Shown here piece after piece: positions 12,085 to 35,655 of a DNA stretch of 59,864 nt; the stretch's first letter is position 1, and each line of letters begins with the position of its first letter. This DNA is from Acidimicrobiaceae bacterium. GTDB taxonomy: Bacteria; Actinomycetota; Acidimicrobiia; Acidimicrobiales; MedAcidi-G1. Made by a program: the position numbers and the translations under genes. The stretch is from positions 1 through 59,864 of the forward strand of contig PBYV01000024.1 in the NCBI GenBank assembly GCA_002729765.1, given 5' to 3'. The notes under the pieces were generated by a model that was not told the origin of the DNA, did no database searches, and worked only from the letters and a program-made list of their open reading frames with translations.

Positions 12085-13296
12085 TCACGAAACTGTGAAG
12101 ATAAGGCCGTGATCAACCAAATTTCCTATTTCAACTGAACTCAGTTTCAAATTGTCAGCTAAGACTTGTTCAGTGTGTTCTCCCAACAACGGCGCTTTGA
12201 GAGCATTCCGATCATCTACCAGTGGACCTCCGAAAGATAAAGGCGACCCAGGGATCAAGTGTGTCCCCACTCCAGGTTGATCAATTTTGGAAAACATCGG
12301 ATTCTCTGTTGAACACCTTGGATCCTCGTCAAGCATCTGACTGAATGTCCTGTAAGGACCCCAGCACACTCCATATTTATCAAGCCGTTCAGAAATTTCC
12401 TTTAAGGTTAAGCTTTGAAACCACGGATCAAACAAATCCGCAAGTTCTTCTCTTGCTTGAAAACGTGCCCCTTCATCTGTGAAATCAAGGTCAAGTCTTT
12501 GAGATAGTGAAGCTACCTCTTCCTGAGTCTGTGTCGCCTCTAAAAGTCCATCCCATTGCCTTTGAGTGATAGCCACAACCATCACATGACGGCCATCGAG
12601 GCTCAGAAAATCTCTTCCAAAAGCTCCATAGAGGTAATTACCAAGTTTTTTTCTTTCCTCTCCACCTAGCTCAACTTCGGAAAGGTCTCCCCTCCACGCA
12701 ACAGCTGCTAGCGCAACATCTGACAAAGCAAGGCCTACTAACTGGCCTTCCCCAGTTTGTGTTCTATATCGGTCAGCCGCAAGCATCCCTAATGCTGCGG
12801 TTTGGCCACAGATGAGATCCCAAGCAGGCAATGAATGATTGACAGGACGAGGATCGTCCACGTGACCAGTTATTGACGGAATACCAACTGCACAGTTAAT
12901 CGTGTAATCCACCGCTGTTGTTCCGTCGTGGCTTCCCGTGATCGCAACCATCACTAAATCTGGTCTTTTTTCTGAAAGTTTTTCGTAACTGAGCCACCCT
13001 TTTGCAGGAAAATTGGTTAAAAAATTCCCTGAAGTGGCTATAAGTTCCGATAATAAAATCTGTATCTCAGGTGCTTGTAAATCTGCTACAACTGACTTCT
13101 TTCCACGGTTCAAACCATTCCAATAAAGGCTTACCCCATCTTCAGTAAGAGGCCAACGCTTATAGTCGATTCCTCCGCCGAGTTGATCAAACCTAATAAC
13201 TTCGGCGCCCATCTGGGCTAACGTCATTCCTCCTGAAGGAGCGGCAACAAAAGCCGAGCCTTCAACCACAGAAAGTCCTTCTAGTGGAAGAATCAA
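12085..13296 (-). CDS. CaiB/BaiF family CoA-transferase
   Basis: PLEGLSVVEGSAFVAAP...LAQMGAEVIRFDQLGGGIDYKRWP...NRGKKSVVADL. Confidence 0.88.
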   Translation of the reverse strand: MILPLEGLSVVEGSAFVAAPSGGMTLAQMGAEVIRFDQLGGGIDYKRWPLTEDGVSLYWNGLNRGKKSVVADLQAPEIQILLSELIATSGNFLTNFPAKGWLSYEKLSEKRPDLVMVAITGSHDGTTAVDYTINCAVGIPSITGHVDDPRPVNHSLPAWDLICGQTAALGMLAADRYRTQTGEGQLVGLALSDVALAAVAWRGDLSEVELGGEERKKLGNYLYGAFGRDFLSLDGRHVMVVAITQRQWDGLLEATQTQEEVASLSQRLDLDFTDEGARFQAREELADLFDPWFQSLTLKEISERLDKYGVCWGPYRTFSQMLDEDPRCSTENPMFSKIDQPGVGTHLIPGSPLSFGGPLVDDRNALKAPLLGEHTEQVLADNLKLSSVEIGNLVDHGLIFTVS

Positions 13297-13310: not shown

Positions 13311-13778
13311 TCAGCTTTGCGAACGGATTACTGACAAAACTTCATCACCATGAGTCTGAAAATCTGTAATTGAGTCCTGATCCCAAATAGCCGCAATTAA
13401 CCCCTCAGGAGAAATCAAAAAACTGGTTCTTAAAGAAAAGGCCACTGCAGGGTCATCTGCAGGTCGAGCCACACCATAAAGTTCCCCTATTTTTCTTTCA
13501 GGGTCAGAAATTAATGGAAAAAGGAAATCATATTCATCAGCAAATTTCTTTTGTTCTTCCACAGAGTCGAAACTGGCGCCAACTATTGCAGCTCCTAAAT
13601 CTGAAAAATCTGAGGCTCTATCACGGAGCCCCTGGCCTTCCATCGTTCAACCAGGTGTAGATGCTTTTGGATACCACCAAAACAAAACCCAGCTACCTGA
13701 AAAATCAGCCAAAGATAATGTATTTCCATCTTGATCAAGCGCTGAAAATTTTGGTGCTTCGTTTCCTACTTCAAGCAT
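13311..13778 (-). CDS. Selenocysteine-containing peroxiredoxin (BCP/AhpC-TSA family), in-frame UGA at Sec44
   Basis: Continuous reading from ATG at 13778 (SD-like AGAGGA just upstream): MLEVGNEAPKFSALDQDGNTLSLADFSGSWVLFWWYPKASTPG-U-TMEGQGLRDRASDFSDLGAAIVGASFDSVEEQKKFADEYDFLFPLISDPERKIGELYGVARP...; 155 aa. The TGA codon (13647..13649) replaces the peroxidatic Cys in the BCP motif TPGCT. The track shows only the post-UGA part (13311..13643). Confidence 0.85.
13612..13632 (-). promoter_or_regulatory. Candidate bacterial SECIS hairpin downstream of UGA
   Basis: RNA sense: GGGGCUC-CGUGAUA-GAGCCUC, 7 bp stem (one G-U) and 7-nt loop with G at loop position 2; loop begins 22 nt after UGA. Confidence 0.7.
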
Positions 13779-13849
13779 TATTCCTCTTTTTCTTCATATC
13801 TCACAATAGTGACCATAGCTTCTCAAGCCATCCAAAAGAGCTTTATAAA

Positions 13850-15313
13850 TTAAGCTAACCAAGAAATAGCCTGAAGCTCGCTATAAGCCCTTAAGCCCCA
13901 TGTCCCACGGTCTCTGCCTATTCCAGACATCTTGAATCCTCCAAAAGGGGCTTCCATGTGCGGCTGAAAACTGTTAAGGGCAACGTTTCCGCTTTCTAGA
14001 CTCTTAGCTATCTGGTGGGCTCTAGCATTATCACCTGCATAAACGTAACTAAATAGTCCATAATCAGAGTCGTTGGCCATTTCAATCGCTTGTTCATCGT
14101 CGTCATGTGGCATCACCACGACAACTGGTCCAAAAGCTTCTTCACGGACAACGTGCATATCAGTTGTGCAGTCCGCTAAAAGTGTTGGTGCTACAAAATA
14201 GCCTTGTTCATCAGGTCTTTGACCGCCGCAAACCAATTTGGCACCTGACTCCACACCGGATGAAACAAAATTTTCAACGTTGTCTCTCTGCTGTTCTGAA
14301 ATCAAAGGTCCTACCAAAGTGTCACGTTCTCTTGGGTCTCCTATTTTGAGCATCCCTGCTACAGCCGAGAGGGTCTCTACTGTTTGATCGTAAATACTAC
14401 GATGGCAGATAACCCGCGTTGGAGCGGTGCAAATCTGCCCGCTGTGGAAACCCCAAACACTTGCTATAGCACCCATCGCTGCATCGACGCTGGCATCTTC
14501 GGTCATGATTAGAGCACCTTTTCCACCTAGTTCCATAAGAACACGTGTCATAGTTGATGCGCCGCTTTCATAGATTGACTTTCCAACAGAAGTTGAACCC
14601 GTAAAGCTGACCATGTTTACATCTTTTGAGGCAACCATCGCAGCCGGGACTTCCGGACCGGAAGAAGTAACAATATTTACAACTCCTGGAGGGAAACCGG
14701 CTTCATTTATAGCTTCACCTAATCTCAAAATACCCAGTGGGTCCTGTGGAGCCGGTTTTATGATGCAGGTGTTACCCATTGCTAAAGCTGGTGCTATTTT
14801 CCCCGCCACATTAGTAAGAGGAAAATTGTAGGGTGTGATACATAGAACAACCCCAACTGGCTGATGGTATACGGATGCAGCTACAAGGCCCGCAGGTCCA
14901 AGAGCATTCGCTCCTTGTTTAATAGGAAGTTCAGATGAATCTATACGTTGTGGTTTCGAGTAGTAACGGAAACGGTCAATAAACCCTCCTGCGACTTGGA
15001 GAGTTTCCGTGATATTTATTGTTGACCCAGTCTCTGCCTGAACTAAATCGACCCATTCTGGAGTTTTCTGTTCTAGTACATCTGCAAGTTTTCCGAGTAA
15101 ATGACACCTCTGGTCAATCGATGTATTTTTCCACCCGTCTAATGCTTCTCTTGCAGCGGTCATTGCATCGGCTGCTTCACTTAGAGTCGCTTCTGGTGCA
15201 TTACCTACTGTCTCCGTCGTGTAAGGATTCACGACTGAATATGTTTCTGCGGTTTCTACCCATTCGCCACCTATAAGCAATTTCCATTGCTCTTGTGGGT
15301 CTATTTTCGTCAT
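13850..15313 (-). CDS. Aldehyde dehydrogenase family protein
   Basis: FTGSTSVGK, MELGGKGALI, GQICTAPTR catalytic Cys, EEAFGPVV. Confidence 0.92.
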   Translation of the reverse strand: MTKIDPQEQWKLLIGGEWVETAETYSVVNPYTTETVGNAPEATLSEAADAMTAAREALDGWKNTSIDQRCHLLGKLADVLEQKTPEWVDLVQAETGSTINITETLQVAGGFIDRFRYYSKPQRIDSSELPIKQGANALGPAGLVAASVYHQPVGVVLCITPYNFPLTNVAGKIAPALAMGNTCIIKPAPQDPLGILRLGEAINEAGFPPGVVNIVTSSGPEVPAAMVASKDVNMVSFTGSTSVGKSIYESGASTMTRVLMELGGKGALIMTEDASVDAAMGAIASVWGFHSGQICTAPTRVICHRSIYDQTVETLSAVAGMLKIGDPRERDTLVGPLISEQQRDNVENFVSSGVESGAKLVCGGQRPDEQGYFVAPTLLADCTTDMHVVREEAFGPVVVVMPHDDDEQAIEMANDSDYGLFSYVYAGDNARAHQIAKSLESGNVALNSFQPHMEAPFGGFKMSGIGRDRGTWGLRAYSELQAISWLA

Positions 15314-34522: not shown

Positions 34523-35655
34523 TTTTCAAACTCTCTTAGCTGATGAACAGCATCGGGAACGGCGTTTAGTGCATATTCTATTTCTTCGTCGGTTGTAGTT
34601 TGACCTAAAGAAAATCTGATTGAACCTCCAGCTGTTTTTAAATCTACGCCCATTGCTTGTAAAACATGTGAAGCCTCTTGCGCCCCGCTTGCACATGATG
34701 AAGCTGCACTTGCATATATACCCTGATTTTCTAAAAGAAAAAGTAGTGCTTCGTTTTCTATATTTTTAAAACAAAGATGCGCTATTCCAGGTGTTCTGGG
34801 TGTTTCTTTCGGCAGAGTGCGACTTGTCCCACTAATTTTTTCTATTAATCCATTTTCCAATTTGTCTCTTAACCCAGTAACTCTTTCGTTTATCTTTAAT
34901 CGTTCAACCTGCATTAAACGGGCCGCTTCTCCAAGTCCCACGATTGCCGGAACGTTTTGAGTTCCGCTTCGTCTTTCCCGCTCTTGCCCTCCTCCACGAA
35001 TTACAGGAGACAAATTCACACCATCTCTTAGGATTAAAGCTCCTGCACCTTTCGGGCCGCCAAATTTATGTCCAGTAAGACTTATTAAATGTACTTTTTT
35101 CGAAGATTCGGCTATATCCAGCCATGAAGTCGCTTGAACCGCGTCTGTGTGAATCATAGTTTCTGGTGTTTTTTCTGACACTAAGTCGGCAATTGTATTG
35201 ATGTCATTGATTACTCCAGTTTCATTGTTCACCATCATGACGGAGACTAAAGAAATATCAGCGAATGCCTCTAAAAGATTGGCCAAACTTTCGAGATCAA
35301 CCCTTCCAGTCTCATCTGTGGGTGCCACTATCCCGCCAGATTCCCTAACAGGTTCCAACACTGCAGGATGTTCGGTCGCGGAACACAGGACTTGACCACC
35401 TTTGACACCTAATGTGCCATCTATCGCCAAATTATCTGACTCTGTTCCTCCACTTGTGAAAATCACATTCCCAGGTTCTGCTCCAACTAGTGAAGCTATG
35501 TGATCTCGCGCATCATCAATAGCTCTACGTGCTTCTCGCGCTAGCCGATGAGATCCTGATGGGTTTCCTGGATGTTCTGAAAGCCATGGCATCATTGCTT
35601 GGATAACTTCTTCTCGCACAGGCGTGCTAGCAGCATGATCTAGATATATATCCAT
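34519..35655 (-). CDS. Cysteine desulfurase (IscS/NifS-like)
   Basis: YLDHAASTPVREEV, FTSGGTESDNLAI, SLTGHKFGGPKGAGALI, SSCASGAQEASHVL. Confidence 0.95.
   Translation of the reverse strand: MDIYLDHAASTPVREEVIQAMMPWLSEHPGNPSGSHRLAREARRAIDDARDHIASLVGAEPGNVIFTSGGTESDNLAIDGTLGVKGGQVLCSATEHPAVLEPVRESGGIVAPTDETGRVDLESLANLLEAFADISLVSVMMVNNETGVINDINTIADLVSEKTPETMIHTDAVQATSWLDIAESSKKVHLISLTGHKFGGPKGAGALILRDGVNLSPVIRGGGQERERRSGTQNVPAIVGLGEAARLMQVERLKINERVTGLRDKLENGLIEKISGTSRTLPKETPRTPGIAHLCFKNIENEALLFLLENQGIYASAASSCASGAQEASHVLQAMGVDLKTAGGSIRFSLGQTTTDEEIEYALNAVPDAVHQLREFEK

Follow-up and report, generated by a model that had tools for sequence, protein, structure and literature searches.

The locus and its reading frame

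The window analyzed here, a 59,864-nt stretch of DNA from an Acidimicrobiaceae bacterium of the MedAcidi-G1 family (Acidimicrobiales; described in PMC10205998), carries on its minus strand a 155-codon frame whose sole internal UGA is codon 44 and which is otherwise open. Its features, in the order of transcription, are:

13850..15313, minus strand: aldehyde dehydrogenase (ALDH) gene, upstream neighbor
13782..13787, minus strand: AGAGGA, Shine-Dalgarno-like, read directly off the sequence
13311..13778, minus strand: predicted gene for a Sec-containing PrxQ/BCP peroxiredoxin of 155 aa, with ATG at 13778 and stop TGA at 13313-13311, assigned by domain and fold match
13650..13652, minus strand: Gly codon GGT immediately 5' of the UGA
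13647..13649, minus strand: in-frame UGA, read as the selenocysteine codon of residue 44, the peroxidatic residue in PxxxTxxU
13612..13632, minus strand: bacterial SECIS hairpin with a 7-bp stem and the 7-nt loop CGUGAUA (13619-13625), supported by covariation and RNAalifold
12085..13296, minus strand: CoA-transferase family III (CaiB-like) gene, downstream neighbor

An earlier note on this DNA had proposed a UGA exactly at the peroxidatic Cys codon of a peroxiredoxin, intact coding sequence on both sides of it, a Shine-Dalgarno-like element, and a same-strand unit with an ALDH and a CaiB gene. All of these hold on reexamination, with the AGAGGA standing only 3 nt from the ATG, a short spacing. 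Read through the UGA, the protein begins MLEVGNEAPKFSALDQDGNTLSLADFSGSWVLFWWYPKASTPGUTMEGQGLRD..., whereas a gene caller that terminates at UGA yields only a 110-aa fragment, and it is plausible, given a PRK09437 score of only 101 bits against a cut-off of 140, that standard annotation misses the gene. The ALDH/peroxiredoxin/CaiB order is retained in eight same-genus loci (L050-L057), and the CaiB-like neighbor, which has no known link to selenium, is probably cotranscribed with the peroxiredoxin gene.

An open frame through a TGA proves nothing alone, since the window holds 21 such joined frames when at least 40 codons are required before the TGA and at least 60 after it. What sets this one above chance is homology to PF00578 across the UGA, the exact active-site position of that codon, and conservation in dozens of genomes. 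The 20 other joined frames, for example at 34528 and 2649 (minus strand), appear by eye to be ordinary gene ends or shadow frames.

Protein family, active site, and fold

In a profile search, the match to PF00578 (AhpC-TSA) spans the UGA, covering residues 4-130 with 116 bits (1e-33). Scores against two NCBIfam models fall below the cut-offs, with 101 against 140 bits for PRK09437 and 55.7 against 270 bits for PrxU (NF040737), which places the protein outside PrxU as that model defines it. An AlphaFold2 model has a thioredoxin fold with a pLDDT of 86 (about 61 in the active-site loop), and among solved structures it comes closest to those of BCP/PrxQ proteins, with a TM score of 0.85 to both 3drn and 5epf, the latter being Mycobacterium tuberculosis BcpB.

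The catalytic residues of the window protein are P37, T41, U44, and R117. T41 and R117 are invariant in a 35-row alignment; P37 is substituted in a few copies (e.g., L023, L024, L026, L028, L035, L041, and L044). The window protein lacks Cys altogether, as do 26 of 29 distinct family members, and a search of it for a resolving Cys (e.g., at C_P+5) found none, so it falls outside the 2-Cys PrxQ definition. The remaining PF00578 matches in the same incomplete assembly comprise TlpA/ResA-like proteins plus a WAxxUGC-like protein whose gene carries a UGA of its own; judged from sequence, the window gene may encode the cell's principal PF00578 peroxidase.

Conservation of the UGA and its hairpin

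An orthologue with exactly one TGA is present in 48 of 48 home-family genomes and in eight genomes from other families of the order, and in each of the 40 distinct orthologues inspected the TGA stands at the C_P codon. The relatives thus have UGA rather than UGC or UGU at this codon, and none shows additional stops or frameshifts. Purifying selection is equal on either side of the UGA, with a median dN/dS within the genus of 0.091 before it and 0.088 after it. No relative was found in the viral contigs searched.

A covarying hairpin follows the UGA, in line with the selenoprotein reading. Its stem begins 14 nt and its loop 21 nt past the UGA, with G as the second loop base. Across 33 distinct sequences, 99.6% of stem cells are paired, and 27 cells at three pairs are doubly changed, against a mean of 7.2 in shuffles, none of 500 of which scored as high; sequence kinship inflates these covariation counts, and seven orthologues at a greater distance (among L060-L067) were excluded from the hairpin alignment or do not conform to it. 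Compensatory C-G/U-A and G-C/A-U pairs are spread over several genera and families, sliding the register always gives a poorer result than the 7-bp stem, and RNAalifold recovers that stem unaided. By inspection, L062-L066 keep the CGUGAU loop, but the hairpin that surrounds it is displaced by one base. Single-sequence folding was uninformative (the window hairpin is not significant at z -0.87, in a range of -0.87 to +0.32), and we therefore relied on covariation.

Bacterial SECIS elements lie just downstream of the UGA and have a small apical loop with a G (PMC1088965). The window hairpin has this placement and this loop. Zhang and Gladyshev reportedly stated in 2005 that the G falls within the first two loop bases and 16-37 nt from the UGA, and the hairpin fits that rule in both respects.

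The codons themselves are constrained. The loop start CGUGAY is invariant in the hairpin alignment, and 40 of 40 orthologues encode the loop Arg by CGT, a codon used for 24 of the 210 other Arg residues of the same genes; kinship again inflates such counts. Likewise, the 40 Acidimicrobiales orthologues inspected all use GGT for the Gly that precedes the UGA, where synonyms would be free; this is possibly an effect of context on read-through or on release factors. Gly codons elsewhere vary, and outside the class the pre-UGA Gly is also encoded by GGC and GGG.

Selenocysteine machinery

The earlier note had suggested looking in the same genome for selA, selB, selD, and tRNA-Sec, and all four are present in the source assembly (1.89 Mb, 79.6% complete). 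The tRNA-Sec scores 66.1 bits (cut-off, 47) and has a 96-nt long-arm structure with the anticodon UCA (tca in ARAGORN); selA (387 bits) adjoins selB (310 bits); and selD (385 bits) is a selenoprotein gene with its own UGA at the catalytic site:

L069:4651-5700 (G000:C8), minus strand: selD, HGAG-U-GCK

A class-V aminotransferase gene (L069:5745-6914) lies upstream of selD on the same strand. A candidate second redox selenoprotein, a 345-aa ResA-like protein with FSSW-UGA-GC, is encoded at L091:1-1035 (G000:C36, minus strand); its best match, NCBIfam WAxxUGC_long, is below the cut-off (178 against 300 bits). A covariance model of the window hairpin found no second strong match genome-wide (the runner-up had an E of 1.28), so the SECIS elements of the genome's other Sec genes must differ from it in sequence.

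Across the order, selA is present in 88 of 119 genomes, including 45 of 48 in the home family and 52 of the 56 that carry this peroxiredoxin. Two of the four carriers without selA (G033 and G109) have a tRNA-Sec above cut-off; the others, G008 and G018 (69% and 85% complete), have neither selA nor a tRNA-Sec above cut-off, which incompleteness can explain.

Same-genome Sec machinery, TGA conservation, dN/dS, SECIS covariation, and fold converge on one reading: on this sequence evidence the gene almost certainly codes for a PrxQ/BCP-class peroxiredoxin that contains selenocysteine.

Alternative readings

The frame does hold a stop, and TGA-joined frames are common in the window, as would be expected if codon 44 were a nonsense mutation in a pseudogene or an error of sequencing or assembly at 13647-13649. 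Yet an error or a decaying gene would hardly leave a single TGA throughout the family, at the same codon in 40 distinct sequences from independent assemblies (among them L052, AG-414-N20, by its name a single-cell genome), nor a dN/dS of about 0.09 past the stop and a covarying hairpin; we consider this explanation exceedingly improbable, and conservation together with selection rules out both of its forms in practice. Just as improbable is a genome-wide reassignment of UGA to Trp or Cys in place of a programmed Sec site. The UGA does sit where homologues have Cys, but TGA is also the terminator of the gene itself in 21 of 26 family copies examined for their stop codon, the Sec machinery is complete, and the hairpin and its loop constraint fit SelB-dependent insertion. 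A recoded genome was rejected on the strength of conservation, selection, and the Sec machinery.

Only marginally less remote is a gene with two products, in which frequent termination at the UGA, or restart at ATG 13643, would give a truncated protein with a role of its own. The window has this ATG two codons past the UGA; however, only three of nine same-genus copies have Met there, and other relatives mostly have Ile, Val, or Leu, so that the restart lacks conservation. Nor would such a fragment act as a peroxidase, since both the active site and the N-terminal strands would be missing from it.

Relation to known systems

Sec-containing peroxiredoxins with TxxU are a known selenoprotein family (PMC1088965, PMC2398784, PMC5029168), which ranked second in abundance in the Sargasso Sea data of 2005 (PMC1088965). 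The Sargasso Sea/GOS proteins (COG1225/PF00578; PMC1088965, PMC2398784) share with the window protein the Pfam family, the TxxU Sec, a downstream bSECIS, and a marine source, but they are metagenome sequences for which these two studies name no actinobacterial host, whereas the window gene comes with a known host lineage, known Sec genes, and orthologues from dozens of genomes. The Sargasso/GOS reads may include some of the window gene itself. The Eubacterium acidaminophilum protein PrxU (Sohling et al. 2001, cited in PMC13188914) likewise has a peroxidatic Sec in PxxxTxxU; it differs in its model, NF040737, which has 233 positions, and in its known host, a strict anaerobe. Cys-type PrxQ/BCP proteins (PRK09437; PDB 3drn, 5epf) are alike in fold and in the catalytic P, T, C_P(U), and R, but their C_P is Cys where the window protein has Sec, and it lacks the +5 Cys that the Cys homologues in this data set have (TPGCTxEAC). 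Prx-SUH, SelL-related, and WAxxUGC proteins (NF045827, NF040769, NF041054) are thioredoxin-fold redox selenoproteins of weak similarity to the window protein; Sec lies in CxxU in Prx-SUH (PMC13188914) and in UGC in WAxxUGC, as opposed to TxxU here.

A search of the available literature for published mention of selenium use in the host lineage or in Acidimicrobiales found nothing relevant, and the string "selen" does not occur in the 2023 study of the family (PMC10205998). The earlier note had regarded a Sec-using marine actinobacterium as notable. Its selenoprotein reading is supported, and each of its proposed checks that was carried out favors it, but the protein family was already known and, with Sec use widespread in the order, the window gene is no isolated surprise. 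What is new is the host lineage and a clade without a Cys form in the sampled genomes, rather than the Sec-Prx kind itself: one of the most common marine selenoprotein families, known mainly from metagenome reads, is tied to an uncultured planktonic actinobacterial family, and the finding predicts that the host cells depend on dissolved selenium.

Proposed mechanism

We posit that SelB carrying Sec-tRNA would bind the hairpin and insert Sec at codon 44 in place of termination. Held by P37, T41, and R117, the Sec44 selenolate would then reduce H2O2 or organic peroxides and be converted to a selenenic acid, which an external thiol (thioredoxin, or mycothiol with mycoredoxin) would resolve, recycling Sec44. 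The resolving thiol needs to be external because the window protein has no Cys, and the lack of Cys in most home-family members implies one-Sec catalysis of this kind. The source genome may code for mycothiol synthesis, with two adjacent MshC-like genes that score below the cut-off (G000:C12:4078-6500; 437 and 302 bits against 485).

A clade of Sec forms

A tree built from 55 proteins unites 43 Sec sequences with a single Ser sequence in one group (support, 100/99) and has Cys forms mixed with other Sec forms in a second; the tree is rooted at the midpoint with a long joining branch, and only this clustering is claimed. All 19 matches at E 1e-33 or better in a class sample (296 genomes) have one TGA, as does each of the seven other WW-motif members in a phylum sample (396 genomes), in which three stop-free matches are ordinary Cys BCPs. 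No Cys form of the WW[YF]xKAxTxGU clade was found among the genomes sampled, where every member has UGA except that of G117 (L071, G117:C39), which reads WWYPAAHEPGS: EPGS replaces TPGU, so that the catalytic Thr is lost as well, and the active site was abolished rather than turned to Cys. G117 keeps selA though its orthologue has lost the active site.

We advance, as a conjecture with somewhat less than an even chance of being right, that WW[YF]xKAxTxGU marks a Sec-only PrxQ subfamily without a functional Cys form, in which a one-Sec peroxidase that lacks a resolving Cys cannot work without selenium, and that this streamlined ocean lineage maintains its whole Sec apparatus to make this enzyme along with a small number of further redox proteins. 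Sec in the WW clade has apparently not reverted to Cys, unlike the situation in a sister Acidimicrobiales Prx clade (L072-L084; FFYPKAMTPG[C/U]T), where Cys and Sec members are interleaved and align Cys with UGA, making that clade a good system in which to count Cys/Sec exchanges.
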